A program made the position numbers and the translations under genes. From Malania oleifera (taxonomy: Eukaryota; Streptophyta; Magnoliopsida; Santalales; Ximeniaceae): a DNA stretch of 64,000 bases. This document shows, piece by piece, positions 727 to 64,000 of this stretch; the stretch's first letter is position 1, and every line of letters begins with the position of its first letter. The notes below the pieces were generated by a model. The model was not told where the DNA came from. It saw nothing but the letters and a program-made list of their open reading frames with translations, and ran no database searches. The stretch is from positions 4,382,001 to 4,446,000 of the forward strand of contig NC_080422.1 of assembly GCF_029873635.1 (NCBI RefSeq), in the 5' to 3' direction.

Positions 727-1481
727 TGTAGTGATCCTTAAAAAAATAAAAATAATAAAATAAATAAAATTAAAATTAAATTTAATTTAATTAATTTTCA
801 AATTTTAAATAATAATAATAATTATTATTAATTAAATAATATAATATTATAATAAAATATATATTAGATATATATAACCCTCTGGCTTTAGGAAGGAATT
901 AACATCCCTGAGAAAAGAAGACACAGAGGTAGCGCAGAAGCTCTCCATTTCCTCGTCTCCTCTCTCCCACTCTCCTCAATCTCGTTTCCAATATTTGGTC
1001 GATTGAAAATCCGAAGATACCGTAGGGTTCCTATCACCACCACCGACAATCCTACTGTAGCAGATTTATCGTAGGAGCAGTGTAGGCATATCTCTTGGGG
1101 TAAAGTCAATTCTCAAACTTACCTCAAATTTGCTTAAACCATAAGCCCAATTAACGAACGGAAATTGTCAGGAGACTCGTGAGGAGATTCTCTACAATCT
1201 AACCAAAGCGGGTTTTCGAATTAAAGCTCCGGGACACCAACCTTAAATCGAGGGTAAGTGTAATAATTTAGACTTTATTAGGCTATTTAGGGTATTCAGA
1301 ACCTAAGGGAATTTTATGAAAATTTATTCTAGGGATTGTGATGAATAATATGATTAAGTTTGAATTTCAGGGTTTTAAGGGTTTTTGAACACCTGGGCAT
1401 AGGCTGGGGTGTTATCGGGCTTTTTAGGAATCAAGTAAGGGGATTAAGTTAATTCAGGAGTTTTATTTAATTTGAACCGAT

Positions 1482-1509
<28 letters not shown>
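1482..1509. repeat. (AT)n microsatellite
   Basis: A run of about 14 AT dinucleotides inside the gypsy-type LTR. Confidence 0.9.
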
Positions 1510-1514
<5 letters not shown>

Positions 1515-3119
1515 TTGAAGGTTATTTCAAAAACCAACCGTTTGAAATGGATTTTACAAACCTAAGATATATGGTATGGTATTTTGAATAGAAACGAACG
1601 GTGGAAAGTTTGGTTGTTTATATGATTATGTTTGAAGTTAAAATCGTGTGACCGATGATTTTTTGGTAAGATTTATTGTTTAAATGAATTTGAGATTGTT
1701 TGCAAAATATTGGAACTGTTTGTGAAATATTGGAATTGTTGCGAAAAATACTAAAATTGCTTGTGAATAATGCAAGAATTTGGTATAACGGCCGAGTTTT
1801 AATTGACGGCTATACACAGGGTTGTATTTTGTGGCCGGGGGCTAGGTTTTTGAAACAACAAGAAATATATGTGAAATGATGTTTTAAATGTTATTTTTTA
1901 TTATCTAAACTGCATGATATGCTTTAGGAACCCTGAGGGCCAGTGTATTGTGAGCACGGTACCGTTGTTAGAGATTTGTTATGTGGCCGTGTGTGCCCAC
2001 ACCTGTGCTGAGAGGTGTAGGGTGGTCTTATCCAATTTGCCTACATGAAGTGAATGCACCCCTAAATGAGGGCAATAATGTCATGACCTGCTCATTTTCC
2101 ACATATATATATTTTTTTTTAAATCAACATCAATGTCACATATCTCATATTCTAGCTCAGCAGGTCACCATCCACCTAGACCCGTGGGTACCAGGGATAT
2201 ATCATATCACATAGCAGAAGCCTACGCAGTAGAAAACACACAGTAATATGTATTTAATCATATCATACACCACAATATTCTAGAGTTACTACATCCACTG
2301 TATTTCCAGACATACATCCCAAAAATAAAACCTAGGGACATTTCCCACAAAATCTAACTCTCCCTACAAAACTCACCCTTCAAAAGGGCAACTAACAGCT
2401 CTATATCAGCGGGGTTTTTCCCGCTCTCCTATCTGTGGCTCGTGAAAAGTTAATAAGATTTAGGGGTGAGACACCTCTCAGTAAGGGAAATAAACTAATA
2501 CCAGTGTGTGGCAACATAAGTATTCTGTGTTCAACACATATCATACATAACATGTTCAGTACTGTTTATCAAATCTGGGAAAACATACATATACTATCAA
2601 AACATGGCAAAACATACTGCATTTTTCATAATCATATTTCATCTCATATAATAATAATAACATAAAACAATCATGGTAGGTTAGCTGGCTGTTGTCATAT
2701 ATTACCCCCACATGACTGGGTTGTGCGGCCCGAAGGCGGGACCTGACAATGGTTGGCCGACCACTGCCAAGTCAAACAGTAGTCTGTAGGTTCGATGGGT
2801 CTACCCAGACTGGTCCGTGCACCAGGGGCGATAACAGCACACTTCTTGAAAATAACCACATCGACCATCCAATCTCACACCACTCAGTACAGCGGCGTTA
2901 ACACAAATATCATGATCATGAAGACCATGGACACATAGCAACGGTACCGTGCAAGTGCTAGCCTAAACCAAACCAATCAAGTTCTGATATCATATACATA
3001 TACTAAAAATCGTGATACATGGATATCTCATATCAATAATTATCAAATCAATCATATCATTTTTTACATATACATATTTCATGAAAATCATCGGCCTGTA
3101 CGTCGGAATTACACATTTT

Positions 3120-3275
3120 ATCATAGCTTGGTCTATACGTCGGTAAATCACAAAGCACAGCCCGTACGCTAGCAAATCACATAGCTCGGCCCGTACGCCG
3201 GCAAATCACATAGCTCGGCCCGTATGCCGGCAAATCACATATAAAAATCTCAGCTCGTACGCCGGTTTTCCATCA
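3120..3275. repeat. Minisatellite inside LTR, about five units of about 31 bp
   Basis: Units contain GCCCGTACGCCGGCAAATCA followed by CATAGC. About five diverged units are seen here, against about eight in the related LTR at 55835-56070. Confidence 0.85.
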
Positions 3276-3942
3276 TAAAAATTCATACCATCCACATTCC
3301 TAAAAAACAGCATTTCACAACATTTTTATACTCGTGCCACACTTAACAAATTTTCCACGTATTCAATATATCATCATTTAAACAGTATTTTCCAAACATA
3401 AATCATATATATAAATATATTTATTTTTCCTAAAACCAGATGCTACTTATATAGTTATACATGCATTTTCTCAAAAAGAACTAGCTTAGTTTACCTCTTA
3501 CCTGATTCCAAAAAAGCCCCTAAGAAAATTTCCCCTACAGCTGCAGGGTTCTCAACTCAACACCCTGAAAATGAAAACTAGCAAAATTGAAATTCAATAT
3601 TTTTACGTGCATATCACTTTCTTCAACTGTCAAAAATCCAAATATTGAATATAAAGTCTTACCTCAACTTAGGGATGATTTCCAACTTCCCAATCAACAC
3701 CCTTGGAAACGAAAACTCTCAGTATTAAACTTTAATATTTCAACGTGTATAACACTTTTCTCAACTATCACAACTTCAAATTTGGCTTAAAAAGCCTTAC
3801 CTCAACTTAGGAATGATTTCCAAATTGCTTTCTCCAACGATTCGCTCCGGCAGATTTGTAGAGAATTTCACCAGAAGTGTCGTGGTGGTTTCGATTTGTC
3901 GATCCGGTGTAAAACTGGCCCGGAATCGAAGAGAGAGAGTCG

Positions 3943-3945
<3 letters not shown>

Positions 3946-4010
<65 letters not shown>
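3946..4010. repeat. (GA)n microsatellite in LTR
   Basis: About 32 GA dinucleotides. On the minus strand it is a CT tract in the LTR leader. The RE/LS repeats in translated frames come from this run. Confidence 0.95.
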
Positions 4011-4012
<2 letters not shown>

Positions 4013-4084
4013 CACTGACGTAACACCAAAAATCCAATTCAAATTGGATTTTTGACTTTCAAAGCTTCTTGAAGAAGCTTGTGG

Positions 4085-4088
<4 letters not shown>

Positions 4089-4132
<44 letters not shown>
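4089..4132. repeat. (TA)n microsatellite in LTR
   Basis: About 22 TA dinucleotides near the LTR start as read on the minus strand. Confidence 0.95.
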
Positions 4133-4136
<4 letters not shown>

Positions 4137-5036
4137 ACATTTTTTTTTGTCCTTATCATACTATTCATTTTACTTGTTTAATTTAATTAATTTATTTTAT
4201 TTTATTAATTTATTTATTTATTATTATTTTTTAAAAAAATTTTATTTTTTTCCCGGTTACTACAAATCAGACCAGCAGTTGGAGCTGCGTATACCCGCAG
4301 AGTATGTTAGCAAAGAGTACATATGACTACTATCTGGGTGGATCCCCTAGGACATTAGTCCAGCCTTCGAGTCGCACAACCTGTGCCATGGGGGAAGTAA
4401 ATGGCGTGCTTGTCACAGGGAGTGTCTTATATGCATATATGTTATCATGTGAATACGAATAATTAATAAGATAATTTTGAGAGCTTGTTGAGAAAAGCGA
4501 GTGTCCTAGTAGCAGTAATGGTATTAGAGCAGAGAGAAGTTACTTGTATGGGCGGGTAATCTTCCCTATTCTCAGTCAATTGTGTGTGTGAGTGTAAAAT
4601 AAGAATGTTTCATAAATGTTTTTATCTACTTAGTGAACTGATTATTTTCTGTACACTAAACGCATACTAGCCACACACTGACATTAACTTAGTCTTTCCT
4701 TTACTGAACTGTGCCTCACCCCTACTTTACAAATTATCTTTTCAGGAAATCCTAGAGATCGAGTCTAGCGGGCTAGAGGAGCCGGACTAAAGGTGTAAAT
4801 TTATGTAGGTAGTGTATAGATAGAGATTTATTTTTGTTTTGTTTTATGGGATGTAATTATGTGAAAATAGATATATTTGTGTATAAAGATAGTTAGAACT
4901 CTAGTAATGTAATTTGAGAATTTTGTATTTCATTTCGCTGCATATATGTGTTTTATATATGATGAACAAGGTATTAGGTACACAGATGTCACTAAAGTAG
5001 CACTCCGAGCTCACGTGGCGGGTCGAGGTCGTTACA

Positions 5037-8109: not shown

Positions 8110-9288
8110 TCAAATACAAACCGGGCAGTGAACCAGGCCATTCTCATTACACTCCGAGCACCTCTCTTTCTCAATAATACCAACTTTACCCCCACCCGTC
8201 TTCTTCACCACCTTACAACTTCCTCCACACTCCAAACACGGCACAAACCTTAGTCCCCCGCACCCCCCGCACGCGCGCCTTCCCGCCCCTCTCTCCACTT
8301 GCGCCCGACTCAGCACTTTCCCGAGTCGACCCGACTCGTTCATGCCCACCACCTCCTCCGCTCCCCCCAGATACCTTCCTTTCACGAACACCCTCGGAAC
8401 CGCAGCCTCCTCCCCCAGCACCGCCCTCAGCTCCGCCCTGTAGCCGCCGTGCACCGCCACGTCGCGCTCGTCCACAACTACCCCGTGCCCCTCCAGCACC
8501 GCCTTCACCCGCTCGCAGTCCTCCCGCGTCCGTCGCACTCCCCCCAGCGACGTCGTGTACACCACCACCGCGTCGCCGCCCCCCGGCGGGCACTTTTCCG
8601 GGAACTCGCTCAGCGGGTCCCGCACAACCTGCCTCGATACTCCCCCTCCCTTTTCCAGCCTATCTCGCACCAGGAACGCGTTCTCACTCACCGGTTTCAA
8701 CCCTTCGGTACCGGCCGGCGGCGGGAAAGGAGCTCGTGACTCAGAGCGATTCGACTCGTTCTTCACCGAACCGAGCTTCTTTAACTCGGGAACCGGAGCG
8801 CGCGACTCCGACTCGTTCTTGACCCGGTCGAGTTTCTTCTCGGCCGTGTTGGAGCGCTCGAGCTTCGCGTCGAGTTCTTCAACTGTGTGAAACGACAATC
8901 TCTTGTCATGACTCTTGGGGGCGGTGGAGACTTGCGGCGGGGGCGGGGGCGGGGGCGGTGACATCGCCGCTGGCAAGGACACCGGAGGGGGGGCTACTGG
9001 TGCGTTGTTGCGGAGGGTGGGCTTGAGGTCCTCGAGGGCCTTGCTGACCTCGGCCCATGAAGCGGGATTACCGCCGGCGTCAGCGACGTGCTCGAAGGCG
9101 GTGAGCTTGTCGAGAATGGCAGGCGGCGCGTGGGAAGACTTGTCCTGATGGCCGAGGTGGTGGGTGGCGTCGGCGGCCTTGAGCCAGGGTTCTTCGACGG
9201 CGGAGATATCGAAGGCGGCGAAGCTGGCGGGCGGCGGACGGTAGAAATCGACGGTGGCTTCGATGCGCTTGGAGGAGCTGCACCCCAT
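8110..9288 (-). CDS. Glutaredoxin-domain protein, At5g39865/At3g28850 type
   Basis: Intronless, 392 aa. The start is MGCSSSKR, a good N-myristoylation and palmitoylation signal, so membrane association is likely. Residues 1-235 are low-complexity linker with an eight-proline run (111-118) and a duplicated VKNES...SRAP motif (156-166, 175-188). Residues 240-330 form a glutaredoxin fold (VVVYTTSL, RDVAVHGGYRAEL, VPRVFVKGRYLGG). The catalytic CxxC position reads SLGGVRRT, so no redox-active cysteine is present; this is usual for the subfamily. The C-terminus has DnaJ-like zinc-binding pairs: C340/C343, C351/C354, C377/C380 and C388/C391. The gene is much more GC-rich than its surroundings. Length and domain order fit the plant family; the biochemical role is not established. 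Confidence 0.93.
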   Translation of the reverse strand: MGCSSSKRIEATVDFYRPPPASFAAFDISAVEEPWLKAADATHHLGHQDKSSHAPPAILDKLTAFEHVADAGGNPASWAEVSKALEDLKPTLRNNAPVAPPPVSLPAAMSPPPPPPPPQVSTAPKSHDKRLSFHTVEELDAKLERSNTAEKKLDRVKNESESRAPVPELKKLGSVKNESNRSESRAPFPPPAGTEGLKPVSENAFLVRDRLEKGGGVSRQVVRDPLSEFPEKCPPGGGDAVVVYTTSLGGVRRTREDCERVKAVLEGHGVVVDERDVAVHGGYRAELRAVLGEEAAVPRVFVKGRYLGGAEEVVGMNESGRLGKVLSRAQVERGAGRRACGGCGGLRFVPCLECGGSCKVVKKTGGGKVGIIEKERCSECNENGLVHCPVCI

Positions 9289-10201
9289 GGCGGTGGCTGC
9301 GGGCGAGTGAGTGAGGGTTTGGAAGTTTGGAGAGTTGGGGCCTTGGGGGAGCTATAAGGAGGTGGCGCGTGTGGAATGTGTGGTATAGGGTTGTGGGTTT
9401 ATCTCGTGGGATTCGGATTGGTGGCGATGGATCCTCCAGGTGGATATGTATTATGTGGTGTATGGTGCAATCAGCAATGTGAGATGTGGGGCAAACCCGA
9501 TTTGGAAAATATGGATCGTGAGATGACTCCAGCTGGCAAACTGGTGGGCATGGATTGCCTTCACACCTGGACCGTCAATCCTCTCTTGCTAAGCTCGAGC
9601 TCTCAAGATTTTTAATGCACAAAATTGAATGTGTACATTTAAGCTTATCTAGAATTTTAATTTTTTTTAACATATGGAGATATAGTAAAGCTCAGCTCCA
9701 CTCGAATTCAATTTGTTTAATACATAAATAAATTGTTAAAAATTTACTTATGAAAAATTAATTGCATAACCAGAAGGCAAAGGATTATTTGGAAAATGAT
9801 TTTTATAACATTTGGAAGAAATTAGTAAACTCAAACAAACTTTCATGTGTGATACAATAAATTTTGTGTTGGATTAGTTTTGTTTTTTTCGGTTTTATAT
9901 TTATGGATTAGTGTTTTTCGTGCTAAAAGTGAAAAGAAAATGCGAAGGAAATTTATTTTTTACTATATTTTCTATCTATATCAAATACTACTAAAAATAA
10001 AATTATAAAATTCAAATGGGTTCAATTTTTCTTACTAATTTGGTGTAGGTTTAGTCAGTTGACCTTAAGTTAGGCAAGGAGGTAAGAGTCCGAAGAGCCT
10101 GATCATTATGAGCATTTTGGTTTTCGTTGTGGATGGCGATTTTGGTTGCTGCAGCAAAGCATCATTTTATGTTTTTTCATGCTGCAAAAGCAGAAGTGCA
10201 T
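9289..10201. other. Upstream region of the glutaredoxin-like gene; no further gene
   Basis: The first 100-150 bases are GC-rich and presumably hold the promoter and 5' UTR of the minus-strand gene. A plus-strand open frame at 9376-9615 has no recognisable domain and I do not call it. From 9620 the DNA is AT-rich with nothing recognised, up to the solo LTR. Confidence 0.5.
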
Positions 10202-10274
10202 TGTAGTGACCCGAAGAATAATAACATTTTAATAATAAAAGGGAGAAAAAATAGATACAGAAACAGAAGGAGAC

Positions 10275-10420
10275 CGTAGACTTCGTCGATGAGAAAGTAC
10301 CAAGAGGGGTTTCGAGGTAGCCTGAATTTCGTCGACGAATACAGGGCTTTGTCGACGAATTTAATGAAGGACTCGTCGACGAGGTGACGTGTCTCGTCGA
10401 CGAATCTGACAGTATAAATA
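10275..10420 (+). promoter_or_regulatory. LTR promoter: CGTCGACG palindrome cluster plus TATA box
   Basis: TCGTCGACGA or close variants occur near 10277, 10328, 10350, 10372 and 10394, followed by TATAAATA at 10413-10420. The spacing of roughly 22-50 bases and the place just upstream of a TATA box suggest repeated binding sites for a plant factor. TGACG within the cluster resembles a bZIP core; this is inference. The same order is seen in the LTR pieces at 1-437 and 60270-62301. Confidence 0.6.
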
Positions 10421-10731
10421 GAGGGAAACCGGGATATTTCTCATTTTTCACCGCGCCTCTCTCTCTCTCCCCTCTCTCTCTACACCACTCTCTCCCTTCT
10501 CTCTTCCATTCCGGCCCCATCAGTCGCCGGATCGACGATCTGAGGTTACCATGACACTCCTGGTGGAGTTCTCCACAAGTCTGCCGGAGCGGATCATCAG
10601 AGAAATGAAGTTAAATTTCATCCCAAATTCAGGGTAAAGTCTTTTATCCAGTTTTTGGCCTCATGACAGTTATAGGAAATGATATAGGTAGAAAAATACT
10701 GATATTATGTTCTGTCATATGTTGGTTTCAG

Positions 10732-10795
10732 GGTGTTTTGTAGGAGGCCCTGCGGGTGTTAGGCTTGTATTCCTTAGGAGCTTTCCAATAGTCAG
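10732..10795 (+). other. Conserved mini-exon-like block in LTR
   Basis: This 64-base block lies between an acceptor-like GGTTTCAG and a donor-like CAG-GTAAGGG. Blocks of 61-65 bases with the same borders occur at 1371-1434, 3564-3502 (minus), 46593-46657, 56368-56306 (minus), 61831-61768 (minus) and 63243-63303. The conserved size and borders suggest a spliced leader exon; there is no direct evidence of splicing. Confidence 0.5.
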
Positions 10796-12070
10796 GTAAG
10801 GGAAAATATGTTATGTTAGGTATTTCTTAAAATATGATACAATTTATTTAATTATGAAAATTATGTATTTAGTATGGTGTGGCTTGTGAATATGTATATG
10901 GTACGGGGATATGTTTAACGAATTTAGTTTCATGATTTTACGAATTTCAGTATTATGATTATGCGAATTTCAGTACCATGATTATACGGATCTCAGTACT
11001 ATGATTACATGAATATCAATATTATGATTATGCAGTTTCTATGTTATGATTATTCAGTTCTCAGTATTATGATATATGAATTACAGTACAGTTATGCAGC
11101 ATCATGGTTATTTCAGTACTTTAGAATCATGGTAAATCAAATAAACATATATATAGAAATATATTCTACAATATCAGACCCTGTTGGACTTGTAACTACA
11201 GAGCACAGTACCGTTACTACAGATATTATGTTACTTTATGAGTGCAACCACCTATTCAGATAATACGTGGTAAAGTCAACCACCTAGGCCCTTGAAGAGG
11301 TTAGACTCCCCATCCAGATATGGGTTGAGGTGGGCAGGTTGACTGACAGAGTTCAGTGATTTATTCTTGGTTGGTCAGCCAGGGTAAATCTAACCTACGG
11401 GCCGCACAACCTTGTCATGAGGGGGCATGTCATGACACAAATAGCCACAGGGAACAGTTTTCAATTACTATTACGTATGTACAGATTTACAGTAACAAGG
11501 TACATACTTATGTATGATAGAACTATTTTAAATAGCAACTTTTAATACTGTTATGTTAAGCAACATGGAAAGGGGATGAATTTTCTTACTTATACTGTAC
11601 TTAACATATCCAGTTATACATATTTATATGAAATCAGATTTTGCATAATATTGTTAGTTCATTTGTCATACACTAGTAATAGCATATTTCTTCTTACTGA
11701 GCGTTGACTCATCCCAGTATCGAAACATTTTTCAGGTGATCCAGGTAGGCGAACAGATCAGACTCGCAAATAGAGGGGCGTCTGTAGTGCTCTGTTAGCA
11801 AAGTGAGTATGTTTTGGGAGGATTTTTGTATTACCCTAGCTAGTTAAGGGTATTTTGGGTAATTCAGATATATGTGTATACTGAGAAAACATGTAGTACT
11901 CTGGTATTTGGTAGTATTGGTTTTGTATTGTATATAATGGTTATGGATATGTTTATATGATTCTGTTTCTTGCTGCTTATGTTAATGTTGTGGTATCAGA
12001 GTATGTTAATTGTTACAGTGTTTTTTTTTTTTTTAAATAAATAAATCTATTAATTAAGCAGGTCGTTACA

Positions 12071-12933: not shown

Positions 12934-15900
12934 TTCTCCTACTTGACCCATATGAATAACTTTAATATGGATTAACAATATAACCATAATATGCGCATAA
13001 CCATTAGCTTATTCATGCTTTTAGTGAGATTACCATAATATCATAATTAGATAATTAAATGACACGAGTGATGACGGTAAATATCAATATAGCGACATCT
13101 TCCCTTCCATTTACAACAAATGCTAGCAAATTACTTAACTATAATTCATAATAGGAAGTAACCATAATGTCCCTGTAATATCTTTTGTCAAAGACTATTC
13201 CTATTAACAATAATTCATCTCCATAATTACGTAATTGATGGTAAACAATGATAATGTTTAGAAACACTGTCATTGATATTATTATACAAATGTTATAGAA
13301 CAAAACATAAAGATCCACAATCATACATTAAGGATTACAACAAATACTCATGTGATTAGCATGTTCCATAAATGTCTTTCGTAATAATCCTTTAGTTAAA
13401 GGATTTGCTATCATGAGCTCAATTCTAATATGTTTTATAACCACTGTTTGTTTCCGAACTTCCTCTTTAACAGTCAAATATTTGAGCTCCATGTGTTAAC
13501 GCCGTTAGAATATTTGTCCTTTTTGGAGAAAAAGACTACTACGGAATTATCACAATAAATTCTCAGCAGCCTAAATATACTCTTGATAAATCCAAGTCCT
13601 AAGATAAAGTTCCGCAACCACAAAGCATGAATTATGACCTCAAAGCATGCAACAAATTCAGCTTCCATAGTAGATGTTGTTATAATAGTCTGTTTGGCGC
13701 TTTTCCATGATATTGCTCCACTAGCTAAAAGGAACAAATAACTATAAGTTGATTTTTGACTATCAACACATCCAGCAAAATCCGAGTTGGAGTAACCAAT
13801 CACTTCCAACTAATCTGATCTTTGATATGTGAGCATACAGTGTCTCGTTCCTTTCAAATATCTCAAAACCTTCTTTGCAACTTTCCAATGATCCATTCTG
13901 GGATTACTTTGATATCTCCTAAGCATTCCAACTGCAAAACTAATATCTGGTCTCGTACAAGTCTGCATATACATCAAACTTCCAATAATAGATGCAAAAG
14001 GAATATTTTCCATTCTTTTCTTTTATAATTAATTCTGTGGACAATCATTTTCACTAAACTTGTCCCTTTTACAAATAGGAGTTGGAATTGGTTTGCATTC
14101 AGCCATATGAAATCTTTGTAGAACTTTATTGATATATCTCTTCTGAGACAACCCTAACAATCCACGTGATCTATCACGAAATATTTCAATTCCTATCACA
14201 TAAGTTGCCTCACTCATATCTTTCATTTCAAAGTTCATAGAAAGAAATCTCTTTGTGTCATTCAATAAGCCATGATCTTTACTAGCAAGCAAAATATCAT
14301 CAACATAGATAATAAAAAAAATAAACTTGCTCCCACTGACCTTTAGATTTATACACCAATCAACGATATTTTCCTTAAATCCAAAGGTCGTGATGGTATC
14401 ATAGAACTTAAAATACCATTATCTGGAAGCTTATTTAAGTCCATATATTGACTTCTTTAATTTACAAACCATATGCTCCTTTCCTTCAATCATTAAACCT
14501 TAATGAAGATCCATATACACCTCTTCGTCTAAATTCCCATTTAGAAAAACAGTTTTCACATCCATTTGGTGTAACTCTAAATCAAAATGAGCCACCAAAG
14601 TCATTATGATCCTAAGAGAGTCCTTTTTAGATACAAGAGAGAACAGTCTCTTTGTACTCAACACCTTTATTTTGAGTGACACCCTTTGCTACTAGTTTAG
14701 CTTTATATTGTTCAATATTGTCATTACAGTCGTGTTTGGTTTTAAATTCCCACTTACACCCAACTGTTTTAAAACCTTCAAGCAAATCAACGATATCCCA
14801 GACTTTATTCTGTTTCATGGATTTCAACTCATCATTTATGACATTAATCCACTTTTCAGAATCATTACTTTTAGTAGCTTGTGAAAACGTAACTAGATCT
14901 TTACTAGTCCCTAAATCATAGTCAGATTTTTGCAGATATACCAAATAATCATCAGGAATAGCTGATCTCCTTAATGCTATTTCTTGTTATTGTTCTGCAA
15001 TTGGTTCAATGGTGACATTTTCATTATGAAGTGACAGATCACTAGATTGTTGTTCAATATTATCTTACTGTTTAATAACTGGAGGAACAACAATATCTGT
15101 TAAAGGTCTAAATATCGATATAGGAACCCGAATTTCTTTAATGACCACATTACATGATACATTACTCCCACTCATTTCACCATTTTCAAGGAACTTGGCA
15201 TTTATGATCTCAACAATTCTTATACTATGGTTAGGACAGTAAAACTTATACCCTTTAAACTTTTTTTGATAACCAATAAAGTACCAGCTTACAGTTCTGG
15301 AATCCAATTTCCTTTCATGTGGATTATAGATCCTAACCTTTACTAGACAACCCCAAACATGAAAGTGCCTTAAATTTGGTTTCCTTCCCGTCCACAATTC
15401 AAAAGGAGTTTTCTGAACTATCTTACTAGGAACCTGATTAAGCTCATAAACAACTATTTTAAGGACCTCCATCCATAATGAAATGGGTACTCGGGAATTA
15501 TTTAACATATTTCTAACCATTTTCATAAAAGTATGATTATGCCTTTCAGCCACACCATTCTGTTGAGGCATACCAAGCATTGTGTATTGTGCACAAATAC
15601 CATGTTCTTCCATGAATTTAGCAAATGGTCCTAGACATTGTCTAATTCCATCATACCTACCATAATACTCACCACCTTTATCAAATTGAATGTTTTTCAC
15701 CTTTCTATTTAATTGTCGCTCAACTTCAGCAATATATGTTTTTAAAACATCTATTGCTTGAGACTTTTCATGCAACAAATAGACATAATCATAACGTGAA
15801 ATATCATCAATAAAGGTGATAAAATACTTTTTTCTACCTAAAGACAGTAAGTCAAAAGGTCCATATATATATCAGTATGAACAATCTCCACGAGATTCCC

Positions 15901-27643: not shown

Positions 27644-27649
27644 CTACAG

Positions 27650-43794: not shown

Positions 43795-46229
43795 GAGAGA
43801 GAGAGAGAGTTGAGCTCATGCCTAATAGCAACCAAACTGGTCACATGTGCAAACATCTGATCTTTTATATAGGTAGATATATTATTGCGTTGGGACTTGG
43901 AAGCAGGGGTTGGATAGCATTCAGTAAGCTGCAGTCATCTTTAGAGAGAGACATTAATGCGTTAAAGCCAGTGGACAGTGTGGATGAAGACATTTGGAGG
44001 AGGAAGCTGGTGCTCAGTGTGAAGTAGAAGAGAGAGAGTTGAGCTCATGCCTAGTTGAGAAAAGAAAAGCCAGTGATCCAGAAAAGTAGATAATCAAAAT
44101 TCAAAAGGACATGCCAGATGACAACCAAACTGGCCACGTGTGGACATCAGATTTTGAACATAGGTAGATGTATTGTTGCATTGGGAACAGAGGTTGGATA
44201 GCATTGAGTAAGAAGCAGCCATTTTCTTGAGAGGAACACTTAGAGATTGAAGCCAAACATGAACATACTTCTTCTCACTACAGCTTATGCACTGTTTCAA
44301 CAAATAGGTTTTATTAGTACTTACTACCTGCCACTGATTCACTCCTTTCTGACTATTTACCAAGCAGATCAATGACTTGACTCTCGAATTATCTTCATTC
44401 ACTCATTCAAATTCTCTACCATTTGTTAGTGCAACATAATGTGTATGCTTCCATTCGAAAGAGTGTCATAATAAAAGATTAATCCACCACCACTTTTTAA
44501 GTCCCCAATCCATCTATTTTTTCCAAAAACACAAGAAACGTTAGCAGATCCAGTCTATATTTAATTCCTAACAGGACAAATGCGTCTCAAAAGGATGTTT
44601 TAGTAAATCCCCTAATATGATAATTGTAACCTCACAGACTAAAATGTCACCTCTTCTAATAAAATTAACACTATGTTTCGCTTTTAAGGTTGCACATGTT
44701 TATCCAAAACCAAGTCCATATACAAGATTCAAATACACAAACCACATCAACGGGGTTCCTTCTCACAAAGGTGAGAAATACGAGGGAATAGAAACCCTCA
44801 TGCATTCCACACTATTATATATTTCCAAAGAAAAGATCTAAATGAGTTTCCCCCCATAGAACCGTATTTAGTGTACCCATTCCTATTCCACTTAAGCCAG
44901 TAACCATATTTTAATAAGTTGGAAGCCTTCCTACAAATTGGTTTAAGACTTATACCCATAAATCTAGGCCTTGCACAGGAGCCAAAGTAGGAAGCACCCA
45001 GAACAAGATTTAAAAACAAAAAAACAAAAAAAACACCAAAATGAGCAGAAACGTAAGGGATAATTTCCCAAAGAAAGGACTGTCTTCAGTTGTCCATAAA
45101 CTACTGAAAATGCGTTTGAAGAATAACAAACAGCATGTATTAGAGAAATTCCAACAAGAGAGTGAGTATTTTCTTCCCAAAATAAAAGGAAAAAGATAAA
45201 GACTATCTACTTTGACAAAGGGAAGCCTATACCTCTCATATGAAAGAAAATTTACCTCCTTGATATCATGAAGTCAGGAATAGTAAGGACCTTTGCCTTC
45301 CTCTTAATTCATTATGAAAACCTTAAATTGCCTATAGAGGAAGCTTATCTTGGTGATGACCACATGGTCTAGATGCAGGGGTGTCACAAACAAAATAAAT
45401 GGCTACAATACAACAAACAAAGAAGGGGGAATGTTTTATTAAAACATATTACTACCTTTGGAAGAAGGACACTCTCTGCCATCCTTTTTAAAGTATTCCC
45501 TTATGGAGACCAAAGTTTTCCCTCTGAAATCTTGAATAGTCACCCTTCTCCTATCCGATATCTGCAGTAAAACAGATAAATAAGAAAACAATAATCAATA
45601 GACAACCAATATGATTTGCTAAAGTTTTTCAATCCACAAGGTGGCAGGGAAAAAAAATGCAGGAAAAGAATAAGAACTAGACATGTTCAAAAAGAAACAT
45701 TTCATTAACGAGGTGAAAATTTTTAATTTCCCTAAAACTAAAAAGAGAATAAAATTGAATTCATCTTGCTTTATTTTTTTTCTTATGAATTATAGTTGGC
45801 TTACTTTATTTTTCTTTTCTAAATTCAAACAAAGAGGAATGAGGGTTTATATTCTCTTCAAGCCTCAATAGGAGGCAGAAGAAAAGCAGGAAAAGAAAGA
45901 ACTAGAAATTTCAGAGGTTAGGATAGAACATTTTATTAACAAAGAACAAGTTCTTTCTTTCAGGAAAAGAAAGAACTAGGAAAAGATAGAACATTTTATT
46001 TAACAGTGAACTTTTTTATTTCCCTTCAAGTAATCAGAGGTTAACACTGAGTCATCTAAAGAAAAGAACCAAATATTTTGAAAACCAAACAAATGTAGTA
46101 ACCGAAAAGAAAAAAGTATATATATATATATATATATAGTAATAATTAATCAATTAATTAACTAATTAGGTGGTTAAGTAAATGACATAATTGAATAAAT
46201 AATAATAATAATACACACACACACACACA

Positions 46230-46273
<44 letters not shown>

Positions 46274-49200
46274 AAACAAAAGACAAATATAAGTACATAT
46301 AATACTAATATAATAATAATATATTGGATGTATATGTTAGTTATACGAGTCTCCTGAAGAGGAGAAATCAAAATGAGATTTCATTTGAAATCCATCTTCA
46401 AGAGAGCCAAGCGCGAAGAACACACTCTCTCTCACCGTCTCTCTCTCCTCGCCTTACCTCTCTCTCTCCTCATTTTCTCGACGAATACTTGGCCGATCAA
46501 AGAACGGAAAATACTACTGAATTCCAATCTCAACCACCAACATTTTAACCAGGGTGGATTGAGTTAATTGAACTGGGGAAAATTGATTTCAGGGTTTCAA
46601 GTTTTGAATGTCGCGGGCGTGGAATTAGGAATTTTAGCAGGCCTCTCAGTAAGCCAGGTAAGGGGAATAAATTATAACAGGTATTTTTGGGAAAATTAAT
46701 TATTGAGTAAGATTGTGAAAATGAGAATATGGTATTTAGTTTTGAAAATGATGATATAGATATTTTTCCTGTGATCATTATAGAATGAATATCAATTAAA
46801 CTTTGTGTGGCATGAGGATTATGAAACAACAGATTTATACTGGAAATGTATTTGAACTGGGATATGTGATTTGCACTGGGAAAATAACGCTATGATACAT
46901 ATATAATGAAATGTTTTATATAGAAATGAAGACAAGGGAAACTCAGTTATGTTTTACATACATATTTGTGATGATATGAGATTTATAAATGGAAATAATG
47001 AAAAGTGGAATATAGAATTGTTTTATAGCGAAACAATGAAATGGTGAGAATATTTCTGATGTGATGAAATGTACCAACATATTGAAATGTAAATACTGAA
47101 ATGCGAATACTGAAATGCGAAAATGAGAACCCTGATGGACTGAAATTGGATAGAGAGCACAGTACTGTTGCTAGCGAGGTGTTAGTGCAACCACACGGTC
47201 TCATGGAGAGTGTGATGTGGCAGTTGATTGAGCCAGTAAGAAGGATAGTTTTGCCACCTGACGTCTGAACCAAGGGTGGACAGGCCAATCGTACTACAGA
47301 CAGACAGATTCCTTGTTTTGATCTAACCGGGTAGGCCAACCGCGGTTAGGTCCAACCTTCGGGCCGCACGACCCGATCATGGGGGGAAACATAACGATGT
47401 GAATATCCTCAAGACAACCATGAGTTACAGACAGAATGCGTATTTGTTACTGGTAGATACTCATGAACTAGTTTGTGAAATGAAAATGAGAAATGAAAGA
47501 GTGTAAGTTTAATTGCATAAATAATTAGGACAAAGTAAAACTCTCCGCCTAAGGGCTTACTGAGTAAGATAAGTGTCCTGATAACTATCAGTTGTAGCCG
47601 CACCCAAGTTAATTAGGCAAGGTTACAAACAATATCAGAGCAGAGGGACACTATATGTATCAGCGTGTAATCTCCCCTATCCTCGGAATCTTTCACTGAT
47701 AAATATTGGTTGTATATGTGTAAGTATAGGAAATGGTAACATTGCTTATGAAATTATATTTTATATCTATATGATTATGAGTATTTATCGGTATATTTTC
47801 TCAGATGATGTAATCACTTAAATGAGTATATTATGATATAATTAACTCATATGGCTACACACTGTGAATAATTTATTCCGTTTTACTGAGAGGTGTCTCA
47901 CCTAAATATCTAAACATTTCAACAAACTATGACAAACCAGTAGATAGAGCTACGAGATAGAGGGGAGCTGGTACCCTGGTAAACGGGGTAAGTGTTTTGT
48001 GTTGGGGATATGTTTGTGTAATCTCCTAGGGTACATTATGAATTTTTGGGATACGTATGGATGTAGAGAACTCTAGTTATTTGTATTCTGGATGATTTGT
48101 AAATATTGACTTCGCTATTAGGTTTGTTTGTATGAGATCGACTGTTTACCCAATACCCATTTCGGGTCGGGTAATGTTAGAATGGTATCAAAGTTTTTGA
48201 CATGGCAAATGTTTGATTAATATTTATTATTTATTGGAGATGAAAATGAAAAAAAAAATGGTATGAAAATTTGGGCGTCACAATTTGACTATCAATGAGC
48301 TTCTCCATTTCCCTTCAACTAGAGGTTAATACTGAGATTGAGTCATCTAAAGAAAAGAACTAAATATTCTAAAAACCAAGCATTTGACTATTATCATATG
48401 TTTGGGAGAGACCTTACATTTGGATTTGTATGGATTTAGTCCAAGTTTTCATTCAAAGTTGAAGCATATTGATGTTCGATACCACTGGATTCGTGAAGCG
48501 TTGGAGTCAAAGCAGTTGAGTATAGAGACGATTCATACTAATGACAATGCATCACATATGACGATTAAGATAACGTCCAAATCAAAGCTCGAAACTTATA
48601 GAGCCGCAACAGGTTTGGTGGAACTCTCTGCAAGAGTCGGGCAGGGGAGATTTGTTGGGGCCTGCCTCATTTAATAAAGCAAGACAAAGTTGCTGCCAAT
48701 TGATGGTACCGGCTAGTGCAAATAATTAATAAAGCAAAAAAAAGGCAAGCTTCACAAGGGGTCAAATATGGTAGGCTTCACATAGGGTCAAATATGGCAG
48801 CAGGGTTGACGCAGTCGACTGGTGTAAAGGAGAAGACTTGCTGAAATAATTTTCTCCTATTCACCTATAAAAGGAATACTCCTCCTTCATTGTTTCATGC
48901 TCTCGGTGGTGAATTGATATACACTAAAAAGTGTTGATATACACACAAATGAAGTATGAGTGAGAGCGAGCAAAGACACAATAAGTGTGAGTGCACTGTG
49001 AGTGTGTACTAAAGTGAGTGAGTTGAGTGTATTGTAATTCTCCTCCTCCTTCACTGCATACCCATATATATATATATAGTGAAGTTACTCCTCTCCCATG
49101 GACGTAAGCTAAATTGGCCGAACCACATAAATCTTGTATGTTATTTGTGTGCGTGTTATTTGATCTTGGGCGAGATTCATATCCTAACATGTCTCTCTAT

Positions 49201-54681: not shown

Positions 54682-55834
54682 TACAAAAAATTATGAAATG
54701 GGATTAAATGTTTGCATTGCCCAGCAAAGGATTAAATTCATCTTGAAACAGAAACAATGCTACTATGCAGGCCTACAACAATAACAATGCAGAGATGTAA
54801 CGACCTACTCCTCTTTCACATATATTTTTTTTTATATAAATAAATTATCATCACATCATACATTCCAACTCAGCAGGTCACAATCCACCTGGGCCCGTGG
54901 GCACCAGGAATATAACAAAACATACAGCAGAAGCCTACGCAACAGAAAGTATAAAATCATATACATCTCATCATAATGTGCAAAACACATACCAGAGTCA
55001 CTACAATTACTATCTCACAGTATATACATCTCAAAAATGAAATCTAGGGACAATCCCCACAAAACCTAACTGTCCCTACCAAAAACTTACCCTTCCAAAG
55101 AGGGCAAACAACTGATCTAAATCAGCGGGGCTTTTCCCGCTCTCCTATTAGGGGCTCCTGAAAAATGTATAACATTTAAGGGTGAGACATCTCTCAGTAA
55201 GGGAAATAAACTAATACTAGTGTGTGGCAACATGAGTATTCTGTGTTCTACATATACCATACATAACATATTCAATACTGTTTATCAAATCTGGGAAAAC
55301 ATATGCATATCAAAACATAGCAGAACATATTGCATTTTCATAAACATTTCTCATCTCATATCATAATAATAATAACATAAAAACAATCCTGGTAGGTTAG
55401 CTGGCTGTTGTCATGTATTACCCCCACATGACTGGGTTGTGTGGCCCGAAGGCGGGACCTGACAATAGTTGGCCGACCACTGCCAAGTCAAACAGTAGTC
55501 TGTAGGTCCGATGGGTCTACCCAGACTGGTCCGTACACCAGGGGCGATAACAGCACACTTCTTGAAAATAACCACATCGACCATCCAATCTCACACCACT
55601 CCGTACAGCGGCGTTAACACAGATATCATGATCACGAGGACCATGGACATAGCAACGGTACCGTGCAAGTACTAGCCTAGACCAAGCCAACCAGGTTCTG
55701 ATATCATATACATATACTAAAACCGTGATACATAAATATCTCATATCATTTATTTTCACATCAATCATATCATTTCACATATATACGTGTATCATGAAAA
55801 TCATCGGCCTGTATGCCGGTATTACACATTTTAT

Positions 55835-56070
55835 CATAGCTCGGCCCGTACGCCGGAAAATCACATAGCACAGCCCGTACACTGGCAAACCACATAGCAC
55901 GGCCCGTATGCCGGCAAATCACATAGCACAGCCCGCTGGCAAATCACATAGGACGGCCCGTACGCCGACAAATCATATAGTACAGCCCGTACGCTAGCAA
56001 ATCACATAGCACGGCCCGTACGCCGGCAAATCACATATACATATAAAAATATATCGGCCCATACGCCGGT
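55835..56070. repeat. Minisatellite in LTR, about eight units of about 31 bp
   Basis: Units contain CGGCCCGTACGCCGGCAAA then TCACATAGCA. The copy number exceeds that in the related LTR at 3120-3275. Confidence 0.85.
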
Positions 56071-56744
56071 TTTCCATTATAGAAATCCATATCGACCCCA
56101 TTCCCAAAAAGAATAGTATTTCACAACATTTTTATACTCATGCCACACTAAACAAATTTTCTACGTATTCAACATATCATCATTTAAACAGTATTTTTCA
56201 AATATAAATCATATATATAAATATATTTATTTTTCCTGAAACCAGATGCTACATATATATACATACATTTTCTCAAAACAAAACTAGCTTAGTTTATCCC
56301 CTTACCTGATTCCTGAAAAGCCCCTAAGAAAATCTTCCCCGTACCCACAAGGTTCTCAACTCAACACCCTGAAAATGAAAACTCGCAGAATTAAAGTTTA
56401 GTATTTTTGTACGTACAACATTTTCTATAACTACCACTAAGTCAAATTCGACTTAAAAAGTCTTACCTCAACTTAGGGATGATTCCCAACGTTCCCAATC
56501 AACACCCTAGAACTGAAAATTTTCAGTATTAAAGTTCAGTATTTTTACGCGTATATCACTTTCTTCAACTGTCAAAAATCCAAATATTAAATATAAAGTC
56601 TTACCTTGGATTTGGGATGAAATCCAACTTCGTTTCCCCGACGATCCGCTCTAGCAGACTTGTAGAGAACTTCGTCAGGAGTGTCGTGGTGGCTTCGGTT
56701 TGTCGATCCGGCGTAAAACTAGCCCGGAATCAAAGAGAGAGAGA

Positions 56745-56912
56745 GTCGTAGGAGAGAGAGAGAGAGAGAGAGAGAGAGTGCACTCACGCCCCCCAAAATC
56801 TAATTCAATTTGGATTTGACTTTCAAAGCTTCTTAAAGAAGCTTGTGTTAGTTTATATATATATATAATAGTAAACCTTAATTAAAGTAAAGCTTCTTGA
56901 AGAAGCTTTCAT

Positions 56913-56952
<40 letters not shown>
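56745..56952. repeat. (GA)n and (TA)n tracts in LTR
   Basis: GA run at about 56751-56778 and AT run at about 56917-56952, at the same places as in the LTR at 2079-4264 but shorter. AGCTTCTT...AAGAAGCTT is duplicated around 56827-56907. Confidence 0.85.
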
Positions 56953-56958
<6 letters not shown>

Positions 56959-57089
56959 CCTAATCATACTATTCATTTTACTTGTTAATTTAATTAATTA
57001 ATTTTATTTTCTTATTTTATTATTATTATTTTTTAAAATTTTATTTTTTTTCCCGGTTACTACAAGAGATGTCAAAGTATTTAAAATGA

Positions 57090-60269: not shown

Positions 60270-62301
60270 TGTAACGACCCGACCCTTTATACAGACCTAA
60301 GTGTCACTCACTCATACCTAATACCTGTACTTGTTCCAGATACATAGACAACCCGCCCTAACAGGGACATATGGGTGTACTCATACATAATAATAATGTA
60401 AATGTTATGAAAAAACATAAACATTCATTAGGATTTCTACTAGACTTATACTAGAGTTTACTAACACATTCACAATTTACATAAATTCGGACTTCAAATA
60501 AATCTTGTTATTACAACCTTCCAAAAAAGGAAATTCACTTAAGTTTAATACAAGATCCAAATGCTTACGTAAGCTAAACAAAAAAATCTGATCTCCCCAG
60601 TCCCTTTAGCTACTAGGACCGACGTATTGATGGACCTAAAAACAAAGGTGGTATGATACGGTGAGACACCTCTCAGTAAAGAAGAAAGGGTTACAACAGT
60701 GTGTGACTGCATATATGCGCATTTTCATACAAACTCATACATTTGAAACATTTGTTTATAATACTGTATCAAATAACATTTATCTACACATCAAGTATTT
60801 AAATTATGCATATGATTATTAGAATACCTCCAGCTTGATATGACAATTTGCCTATTTACCCCATGGCATAGGTTGTGCACTGATTGCCTTTGACAGTGTC
60901 CTGTTCGTGCAGACAAAGTCGAGCATCTTTATAGTCGGACCGCCCCTTGGTTTATTTTTACCAGCAGCTTACTAACTCCTTGTAGGTCGACCATCTAATA
61001 TACCCTTATTGATTTTCTCATGTATGGTTGCACTACCAGCATCGGTACTTAGCCCTAGGAGTTTATTTCAACTCACGAATTAGAGTATCTTTCAACCCCT
61101 TTTTCTGAAGTTTATTTCGACTTCTTTTGGTCACAAGCTGTGGTTCCAGAGTCATATATACAATTTATAGCAAAATATAGTAATCTTTGCAATTCCAGTA
61201 TTTTCACAATTTCAGATAAACACATTGGGTTCAAACCGATGCCTTTCCACTCAGTTTACCCCTTTTTGTTTACTGATTCAGTTCGGTGTATCACCGGCCT
61301 CCGTTTTCCATATTCTTAGTATAACAAATTGGAACTTCGTTCCCATATCTATATCAATAATATAGAAAATTCATACATTTCCATTTCAACATACTCAGTA
61401 TAACAAATTGGAACTCCGTTCCCATAATCTATATCAATAGTATAGAAAATTCATACATTTCCATTTCAACATATATCACACAAGTTTCATCCAAAACTCG
61501 CTAAATGATAAAAAATCCAGTAAACGTCATTTAAATGATAAAGTAAAGGATTTGAGCATCTCCTATTATAGTATAAATACAAATAAATGATTTTTGTAAA
61601 GTTTGGAGATCATACGCCAAAATCATTGTTTTTACCAAAACCGTAAAATTAACATTTCTACTCGGTAGAATTTAGCAAATAAGCAGTTAAATCATACATA
61701 TAAGTAAAAACTAACTTTTTAGCGATTTAGTTTTCCAAAAATGTTGTTGTAATCAAATTCCCTTTACCTTAAACTCAAAACTAAACTTCGTACGAATACG
61801 GTCCAAATCGACAACCCGCGATCCTCAAAACCTAAAAACCACAGAATATAATCTTACTATATTTTCTACTACTATCAAAATATCCAATCAAAACTGAAAT
61901 CAGATCCTTACCTCGATTTTTGGGAAAACTGGAAAATCTCCGAAACTACAATCTGGTCCACTAAGATTGTAGAGTTTCCTCTTCTGATCCACACAGTACC
62001 CTCCATTTTTGGAAACGGACGATGATCGGCGAATCTAAACAACTAAAATGGATATTTATAGGGCCTTTGACCAAGTCCAACTTGTCAGCGAGGCGGCGTC
62101 TTCATTGACGAATCCACCACACAGCTCGTTGACAAGGCCATCCCTTCGTCGCCGAGTTCAAGTTCCAGATATTTCTCTGATCCGCTCAGTATTTGCTCAT
62201 CGACGAGGCTCTGAATTTTGTCAACGAGGATCTGAAGGACTTCATCGACGAACGTGACCCTTCATCGACGAACCCAGCTTATACAGGTTTGGGTCTCTAC
62301 A
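60270..62301 (-). mobile_element. Solo LTR, minus orientation
   Basis: The ends are TGTAACGACCCG and GGGTCTCTACA, about 2.03 kb. The flanks are GTTTT (60265-60269) and ATTTT (62302-62306), a probable target duplication with one difference. Read on the minus strand it has CGTCGACG-like palindromes (62275-62090), a TATAAATATCC box (about 62061-62051), acceptor GTTTTTAG, a 64-base block (61831-61768), donor AAG-GTAAAGGG and a late acceptor-like TTTGTTTTTAG near 60632. The layout equals that of the solo LTR at 10202. Confidence 0.82.
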
Positions 62302-62720: not shown

Positions 62721-64000
62721 AAGTAAAGTAAAAGAAAGAAAAAGAAGAAAGAAGAAAGAAGAAGGAGGAGAAGATGTCAGGCGGCCACAACCCCCCCAGA
62801 ATGCGCGCGCCAGCCACCTCCGCCTCCGTCTCTCTCTCTCTCTCAATTTCTTGATGAGTTTGCGACGGATCGGGAACCGGAAGGTGCCGTTAGAATTCTG
62901 GTTCCACTACCGACATTTCTACTAGAGCAAATTTTTCATGGGAACGGTTTAGGCACTGCTCTTAGGGAAATGTAATTTTTCCCTATTTTCTCAATTTTGT
63001 TATTAATATGTGGTTAAATCGACGAACGGACACCACCATGGGGTCCTAGTAGTCGTCATCGTCATTTTGACGTAGGTAATTTTTCAATAGGGATTTTCTA
63101 AACCCTACTCCAAAGCGAGAGTGGGATTTGAGAATTTGGCTAAATTTAATGATATTGTTATTTATTTAGGAATTATGGCCCTAGAAAATATTTAAATAAT
63201 ATTTTATTCAATAATAATTTATTGGAACTAATCTAATTTTAGGGTCTGGGTGAGCGCCGCAGGTATTTTTCGGAGTTCTTGTTGGCGTAGTTCAAGAAAC
63301 CAGGTAAGGGGAAAAATATATATTAAATCAGAATTTTTATGAATTTAATGAAAAAATAAATTGTGTTATATGTACGTGTATATGTTTCAGTATGGGTAAA
63401 ATGCCAACTATTTAAATTATATATATATATATTTTTTTTTTGTTTAGAGCTGTTTATTAGATATGTATATGCGAAAATGAACTGATGAAAGTGAGAAATA
63501 TTTTCAGGATAATTAAATAAGAAATGAAAAGTATTTTCAGTATATAAACATTAAATGTTGGTTGGCTTATTTTACAGGCAGTGTATAAATTTTATTGCTA
63601 AATTGTGTAGCATGAGATTCTGTATAAATATATGTTAAATGTATGAGATGTAGGCTAAGTAAGTAAAGCAATGAAAATAAAATATGATATGGATAATGTT
63701 GCCTGTGTATGTTAAATGCAACCATGTAAATGTAAGACAGCTGAAAGACAGTCATGTTAGCAGATCTAGCACACTTCTATGTAGACTAACTGATGACAGC
63801 TAAAAGGAGCTGTGTTAGCAGATCTAGCACGTTTCTACGTATACTAACTGATGATGGCTAAAAACCAACTGTAGTACGAAGTAATGAAATGAAATGTTAT
63901 GCAATGAAATGACGATGAAATGACAATGAAATGAAATGACAAAGGTAAATGATGTAAATGGGAAAAAGTCACTTAAAGTGAAACGAAATGCAAAGTTAAG
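62440..64000 (+). mobile_element. LTR fossil, 5' part, cut by the window edge
   Basis: It starts near 62440 with a (T/C)GTAAAGACCCGAAAA-type LTR start, followed by an AT-rich stretch, an (AT)n run (62687-62719), a GA/CT-rich leader, an acceptor-like AATTTTAG ending at 63242, a 61-base block (63243-63303) and donor CAGGTAAGGGG. A local tandem repeat follows at 63745-63870. Its 3' end is outside the window. Confidence 0.7.
63735..63870. repeat. Tandem repeat of about 67 bp in LTR
   Basis: GTTAGCAGATCTAGCAC followed by TTCTA(T/C)GTA and ACTAACTGATGA occurs twice, about 67 bp apart, with part of a third unit. Confidence 0.75.

Follow-up and report, generated by a model that had tools for sequence, protein, structure and literature searches.

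In the stretch of DNA analysed here (the window: 64,000 bases, 35% G+C by base counts), the LTRs of one diverged and probably Ty3/gypsy lineage are judged fairly likely to hold, together with a promoter, a putative 5′ leader spliced from several AUG-poor exons. A sequence-only reading of the same DNA had proposed a conserved spliced leader encoded inside the LTR. The borders of the putative exons, the ranks of their splice-like sites, base composition, the pattern of ATGs and the presence of an additional exon 1b and of an exon 3 all argue for this proposal, although exons 2 and 3 show no excess conservation. The leader had also been called noncoding; the avoidance of ATG in the exons suggests an mRNA's 5′ leader upstream of translated sequence rather than a free noncoding RNA.

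The LTRs of the window and the block they share

Each of the seven blocks named in the earlier proposal lies inside its own long LTR (L1–L7):

727..2078 (+), first part of L1, with a polypurine tract (AAGGAGGGGAGAA) just before it
4265..5036 (+), second part of L1, with the terminal GGTCGTTACA and an acceptor TTTTCAG/ ahead of 4746 (here and below a slash within a splice-like motif marks the border)
2079..4264 (−), L2, inside L1, which it splits; target duplication AATAA and AATCA (4/5 bases)
10202..12070 (+), L3, a solo LTR of 1869 bases, TGTAGTGACC...GGTCGTTACA; target duplication TGCAT (5 bases, exact)
46094..48282 (+), L4, without a usable exon 1 donor
54796..57064 (−), L5, a solo LTR of 2269 bases; target duplication AGAGA (5 bases, exact)
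60270..62301 (−), L6; target duplication AAAAT and AAAAC (4/5 bases)
62441 (approximate start)..64000 (+), L7, with a worn start (GTAAAGACCC), continuing past the window edge

The six complete LTRs are 1869–2269 bases long. The LTRs start with TGTAG(T/A)(G/A)A(C/T)C, end with GGTCGTTACA or close to it, and are bounded by short inverted repeats, TG...CA, which are worn in L2, L4 and L7. The target duplications of L2 and L6 were read by eye; those of L3 and L5 are picks among many chance candidates, chosen because the LTR ends there match the family ends, and a search for one at L4 found none. L1 is probably a 3′ LTR, given the polypurine tract before it. A short NFEDEIF frame runs into this tract and presumably resembles the pol end of Ty3/gypsy chromovirus (Tekay/Del clade) elements. 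Neither an internal coding region of the lineage nor a full-length element was seen in the 64-kb window.

The LTRs had been described as largely unalike. They are strongly diverged, but belong to related families: L2 and L5 are ~79% alike and are therefore not independent, while other pairs share patches only (58–77%). As judged from their sequences, all seven are probably distant relatives within one diverged plant LTR retrotransposon lineage, most likely Ty3/gypsy. One more LTR of this lineage, the eighth (437–1, minus strand), starts with TGTAATGACCCG and runs off the window before exon 1 is complete, and so before the block; two of its stretches are 80–83% alike to the 5′ part of L3. Sequences near to TGGTATCAGAGC, which in plant elements serves as the primer site for initiator-Met tRNA, occur at 11991–12002, 48183–48194 and 4519–4530, inside LTRs and not after them; the window holds 11 near matches to it by comparison with 3.4 expected, some of them outside LTRs.

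Elsewhere in the window, five of six scanned open frames matched Pfam (glutaredoxin, FAR1/MULE, PADRE, hAT-like and retroviral SH3-like among them), a content suggestive of a flowering-plant chromosome segment:

8110–9351 (−), glutaredoxin and GRXCR1/2 C-terminal frame, likely a host gene (Pfam)
23039–23593 (+), PADRE frame, likely a host gene (Pfam)
25530–27860 (−), FAR1-MULE-SWIM frame, likely a host gene (Pfam)
15065–15871 (−), retroelement polyprotein remnant (SH3_retrovirus; integrase core below cut-off)
52913–53938 (−), hAT-like transposase remnant (Pfam)

The blocks themselves, which we refer to as putative exon 2, were found at the same relative position in all seven LTRs that reach this region:

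1371..1434 (+), L1 exon 2, donor CAA/GTAAGG
3502..3564 (−), L2 exon 2, used for splice-site rank
10732..10795 (+), L3 exon 2, the block under study, used for border conservation and splice-site rank
46593..46657 (+), L4 exon 2, the sole exon 2 containing ATG
56306..56368 (−), L5 exon 2, used for border conservation and splice-site rank
61768..61831 (−), L6 exon 2, donor AAG/GTAAAG
63243..63303 (+), L7 exon 2, donor CAG/GTAAGG

All lie where they had been reported, with lengths of 64, 63, 64, 65, 63, 64 and 61 bases. The border motif given for them (a pyrimidine with TTTCAG or TTTTAG ahead of the block, and (C/A)AG then GTAA(G/A)GG at its end) is exact in five of the seven; the 1371 copy, however, ends CAA/GTAAGGGG and the 3564 copy has GTAAGAGG.

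A strict pattern for the block matched five times in the window, each time among the seven, whereas 200 locally matched Markov shuffles gave 0.005 matches on average and never more than 1. With looser patterns there were seven matches (two outside the seven; shuffle mean 0.18) and nine matches (four outside; mean 2.41). When a profile built from six blocks was used to find the seventh, six of seven were recovered with E values from 7.6e-14 to 5.1e-5; the 61831 copy of L6 was missed (E 23), and the best stretches of the window outside the seven scored E 1.9 or worse. Taken together, the pattern and leave-one-out results make it unlikely that the likeness of the blocks is due to chance.

Pattern scans for relatives of the block returned 0, 1 and 0 stretches from viral contigs and 13 from prokaryote genome contigs. 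These 14 matches were rejected as relatives and taken as chance, with no visible likeness beyond the pattern itself; when the seven LTRs were compared with the 14 loci by blastn, a single match of 31 bases came out. The lack of relatives in these collections is as expected for a plant element. Two further candidate explanations of the block were set aside: a structured RNA, for which RNAalifold gave no consensus pairs in the seven blocks and Rfam no window match at gathering score; and a small protein, ATG being present in only one of the seven exon 2 copies.

Conserved borders and the anatomy of the putative exon array

Mean pairwise identity among six families (L2 dropped) was 0.91 over the last 6 bases before the block and 0.92 over the first 8 after it. 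By the same measure the block body reached 0.40 and the flanks 0.34–0.41, the latter compared ungapped, which tends to lower their values; 0.28–0.33 is expected by chance from composition. A gapped alignment had its borders anchored by hand and was scored on five families, without L2 and L7. When its ten-base windows were ordered by conservation, the LTR ends took ranks one and five, the exon 2 donor rank two and the exon 2 acceptor rank seven; parts of the long intron also ranked high, TTACTGAG...CTCACC and GCCACACACT most of all. An anchor-free MAFFT alignment placed the donor in register in L1–L6 and the acceptor in L1–L5, and missed the rest.

Exons 2 and 3 are no better conserved than the intron that follows exon 2: between L2 and L5, identity is 0.83 in exon 2 and 0.81 in exon 3 versus 0.91 in the long intron, with 0.97 in exon 1b and 0.70–0.75 in the short introns. 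Conservation of exon sequence was thus rejected as proof of exons. From the alignments, the families appear to share the borders, roughly the length and, with less certainty, the scarcity of ATG; such a pattern would fit a leader otherwise free in sequence, though it does not prove splicing.

Splice-like sites were scored with approximate matrices and ranked among all GTs or AGs of each LTR. On this scale, in five of the seven LTRs none of the 81–165 GTs scores above the exon 2 donor, which comes second in L6 and third in L1; among the AGs the exon 2 acceptor leads in four LTRs and comes second in L4, third in L1 and 14th in L7. Low ranks were obtained for the exon 1b acceptors (11 and 16) and for the exon 3 donors of L3 (22) and L6 (27). 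The antisense strands of L1, L4 and L5 hold fair to strong donors, and the antisense donor of L1 beats every sense donor of that LTR.

Common descent might by itself account for the block, which would then be an unspliced remnant of the ancestral LTR or a protein-binding DNA motif. The LTRs are indeed homologous; other short stretches are equally conserved (the LTR ends, TTACTGAG...CTCACC and GCCACACACT); and the L2 and L5 exons show no advantage over the long intron. Descent alone would not, however, be expected to hold 14 border bases above 0.9 while body and flanks drop to ~0.4, nor to put the exon 2 sites at the head of the GTs and AGs in most LTRs, nor to thin the ATGs of the exons, and we consider this explanation very unlikely.

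Read in the sense direction under the preferred spliced-leader interpretation, the LTR presents in order a TATA-like site, exon 1, in some copies exon 1b, exon 2, a long intron, exon 3, a donor and the LTR end. The TATA-like site lies 145–275 bases from the LTR start and is a clear TATAAATA in L3 and L6; those of the remaining LTRs are weak because they lie in AT microsatellites. A CT-rich stretch follows the TATA-like site in most copies. With exon 1 starts set at TATA + 32, the following were delimited:

10445..10632 (+), putative exon 1 of L3; start from TATAAATA at 10413; donor CAG/GGTAAAG or one base on
56605..56827 (−), putative exon 1 of L5; predicted start; donor AAG/GTAAGA
61912..62028 (−), putative exon 1 of L6; start predicted from TATAAATA; donor GAG/GTAAGG

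The donor-like site that had been noted upstream of the block in several LTRs is present in six of the seven, where putative exon 1 ends AG/GTAA or AGG/GTAA; L4 (the 46593 copy) has no exon 1 donor at a distance giving an intron of normal size. These donors rank 1–4 in five of six, that of the 10732 copy (L3) being weak (14th of 134 GTs). The short intron measures 80–167 bases, exon 2 61–65, the long intron 940–1266 and exon 3 64–67; in L2–L6, exon 3 is followed by GTAAGT, GTGAGT or GTAAGC and then by 268–299 bases to the LTR end.

A second exon-like block of about 46 bases had been noted in the LTR at 54796. This block exists, but it is 40 bases long (56506–56467), and it has a partner in L2:

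56467..56506 (−), extra exon 1b of L5, 40 bases
3663..3701 (−), extra exon 1b of L2, 39 bases, partner of the 40-base block of L5

Both copies keep AG and GT borders. Exon 1b consists of the start of exon 2 (GGTGTTGA) joined to an exon-1-like end, and looks like a duplication that fused the two. The introns on either side of it are 98–99 bases long; the second of L2 best matches the first of L5 (84/98), the first of L2 is equally like either L5 intron (73/98), and straight pairing gives 0.745 and 0.704. This cross-matching is suggestive of exchange between units of a tandem array in which the AG and GT borders were retained. The tandem exon–intron units span 3549–3826 in L2 and 56348–56631 in L5. 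A further tandem repeat, with a unit of ~28 bases containing CCGGCGTACGGGCCG, was read by eye in the long introns of the same two LTRs, with copy numbers that differ:

about 3140–3290 (−), CCGGCGTACGGGCCG tandem repeat of L2
about 55840–56080 (−), CCGGCGTACGGGCCG tandem repeat of L5

Towards the LTR end a late acceptor had been claimed. Its AG is present in four of the six LTRs that reach this point, 291–366 bases before the end, but is lost in the other two. It would open a putative exon 3 of 64–67 bases, which the sequence-only reading had not named; in five of the six copies a donor comes directly after this exon:

2378..2441 (−), L2 exon 3, assigned from its position; acceptor without its AG (CAC); donor GTGAGT one base on
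11736..11802 (+), L3 exon 3, 67 bases; TTTTTCAG/ ... /GTGAGT
47924..47987 (+), L4 exon 3, assigned from its position; acceptor without its AG; donor GTAAGT
55091..55157 (−), L5 exon 3, 67 bases; TTTTTCAG/ ... /GTAAGT
60569..60635 (−), L6 exon 3, 67 bases; TTTTTAG/ ... /GTAAGC; donor rank low (27)

Both borders are present in L3, L5 and L6, at exactly 67 bases in each; L2 and L4 have lost the acceptor AG and kept the donor, L1 has an intact acceptor and no clear donor, and L7 ends at the window edge before exon 3. A pattern for exon 3 matched five times in the window (the three in L3, L5 and L6, and two outside LTRs) by comparison with 0.37 expected. Each of the six LTRs that extend this far has, starting 41–45 bases ahead of exon 3, a conserved stretch that reads TTACTGAGAGGTGTCTCACC or close to it, with inverted-repeat ends (TGAGA..TCTCA):

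2484 (−), 4701 (+), 11694 (+), 47883 (+), 55200 (−) and 60679 (−), TTACTGAGAGGTGTCTCACC stretch

G+C is 0.47 in the exons, 0.27 in the short introns, 0.36 in the long introns and 0.34 after exon 3. U makes up 0.39 of the short introns; the long introns have no U excess (0.332 versus 0.331 in exon 2).

Intron-mediated enhancement is the boost given to expression by a first intron, and the introns described here might act mainly in this way, or as DNA, with the leader itself unimportant. Borders conserved without conservation of exon sequence, and short AT-rich introns near the promoter in six of the seven LTRs, are what such a role would leave behind. As the main function it is very unlikely in our estimation, the steady exon lengths (61–65 and 64–67) and the avoidance of ATG being left unexplained; enhancement and a spliced leader can both hold.

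Start codons and the proposed route of the RNA

ATG counts were compared with expectations from 2000 dinucleotide shuffles, for exons whose limits were set by eye at splice-like borders, in part when the ATGs could already be seen; the P values are optimistic, since the LTR copies are related. Exons 1b, 2 and 3 together contain 2 ATGs versus 9.4 expected (P 0.0025), and all 20 exons 12 versus 20.9 (P 0.0075). Exclusion of L7 left 5 versus 17.3 expected in the exons, a count that none of the 2000 shuffles equalled or undercut. Exon 2 by itself was rejected as proof of ATG avoidance, its count of 1 versus 3.1 expected being non-significant (P 0.14); the only exon 2 to bear an ATG is that of L4, the copy lacking a usable exon 1 donor. 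Exon 1 over all six copies is not significantly short of ATG (10 versus 11.4 expected, P 0.39) because that of L7 has 7; excluding L7 the count is 3 versus 8.3 (P 0.01).

L6 exon 3 was added after the first ATG count and L1 exon 3 was left out. Other choices for exons 1b, 2 and 3 gave 2 versus 9.0 without L6 exon 3 (P 0.001), 3 versus 9.9 with a 63-base L1 exon 3 containing one ATG (P 0.005), and 2 versus 6.7 with L2 dropped (P 0.0135); all exons with that L1 exon 3 gave 13 versus 21.0 (P 0.021). The eight short introns have 11 ATGs versus 15 expected (P 0.12), and there is an excess in the five long introns (233 versus 189) and in the five stretches after exon 3 (61 versus 49).

These counts also bear on the possibility that the LTR is a gene in its own right for a spliced noncoding RNA, which ends within the LTR (in solo LTRs too) and does not run into gag. 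Exon 3 starts 291–366 bases before the LTR end in the four copies with an intact acceptor, which leaves room for a last exon, and the array is kept in the solo LTRs L3 and L5. Avoidance of ATG in exons is, however, expected of the leader of a translated mRNA; a donor follows exon 3 in five of the six copies, and the sequence beyond it exceeds its shuffles in ATG content. We therefore regard a self-contained RNA gene as quite unlikely.

According to the spliced mRNA leader that we favour, the LTR would hold a promoter and three or four short noncoding exons, and transcription would start downstream of the TATA-like site, which lies ~145–275 bases into the LTR. Exon 1 would be joined to the 61–65-base exon 2, and exon 2 to exon 3 (64–67 bases) across an ATG-rich intron of 0.9–1.3 kb; the exon 3 donor would then splice out of the LTR to a predicted acceptor in the internal region before gag. 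In this way splicing would turn a long leader filled with start codons into a short AUG-poor one that may serve translation. Packaging and copying would use the unspliced RNA, on the logic that copying of spliced RNA would have stripped the introns from the LTRs. The conserved stretches of the long intron would be candidate signals restricted to unspliced RNA.

A wider version of this scheme, which we put forward tentatively and think rather unlikely, is that the multi-exon leader is a trait of an entire lineage within the plant gypsy elements and leaves packaging and dimer signals in the long intron of the unspliced RNA only, with solo LTRs acting as portable promoters with spliced first exons for host genes. 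Candidate signals for this would be the TTACTGAGAGGTGTCTCACC stretch and a near-palindrome, ACGGTACCGT or ACAGTACTGT, both in the long intron:

1956, 2941, 11205, 47159 and 55655, palindrome ACGGTACCGT and variants, long intron

The 10-base palindrome ACGGTACCGT is present in L1, L2 and L5; L4 has ACAGTACTGT, changed on both sides and still a palindrome; L3 has one mismatch and L6 has not kept it. The window contains 13 near matches to it versus 6.2 expected, a number reached by 1 of 100 shuffles. With the L3 mismatch, the loss in L6 and near matches being common, it is treated as a lead only.

Relation to known spliced elements and significance

In retroviruses the major donor is usually in the leader downstream of the LTR, and no chain of short exons is known inside the LTR. 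These viruses resemble the proposed arrangement in that a donor in a short leader serves subgenomic mRNA and the unspliced RNA is the genome; they differ in that the donor as a rule comes after the LTR, whereas the putative exon chain of L1–L7 is within it.

Among plant elements, Ogre (Ty3/gypsy, Tat) has an intron between gag-prot and pol that is removed from part of the transcripts, according to PMC6317226 and PMC12786077. Like the present, probably Ty3/gypsy lineage, it is a plant Ty3/gypsy element with an intron (here putative); in Ogre, however, this lies between reading frames, while the putative exons and introns of L1–L7 are inside the LTR, ahead of coding sequence. An intron of the Ogre type was not found in L1–L7: their features lie between the TG and CA ends of LTRs, which in two cases are solo. 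For BARE1 (Ty1/copia), PMC3735527 describes separate RNA pools, the unspliced one being for copying, and a U-rich intron with G+C-rich exon flanks. Splicing for extra Gag is described for EVADE (Ty1/copia) in PMC12786077 and likewise for BARE1 in PMC3735527. The intron of both copia elements is at the gag end; it is not LTR-internal and does not form a multi-exon leader as proposed for L1–L7. Maize CRM1 (Ty3/gypsy, centromeric) produces back-spliced circular RNAs from the proteinase-coding region and adjoining sequence, as reported in PMC7010299. It shares with the present proposal a spliced plant Ty3/gypsy transcript, but its products, as described there, are circular, do not constitute a leader and come from outside the LTR.

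LTRs across clades share end signals, a TATA box and polyadenylation parts, and LTR length variation prevented models for plant Metaviridae (Ty3/gypsy), according to PMC3601003. In the main text of that paper 'splic' occurs 0 times and 'intron' once; the text of a CRM survey contains neither 'intron' nor 'splic'. In the open-licence literature, outside which lie most subscription papers and all bioRxiv preprints, we recognised no report of a plant LTR with introns inside it. The splicing described for plant LTR elements takes place in or next to gag and pol, and what would be new, to judge from sequence, is the putative leader exons inside the LTR.

If the proposal is true, a conserved multi-exon leader in the LTR would be an added class of intron-bearing elements, and would bear on how such elements separate translated from copied RNA. 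LTR-internal splicing would be an unusual mRNA route for such an element. Long solo LTRs would carry a promoter and exons to wherever they are inserted, and would be a possible source of host 5′ exons; equally, LTR exons would be a possible source of spurious multi-exon gene models.
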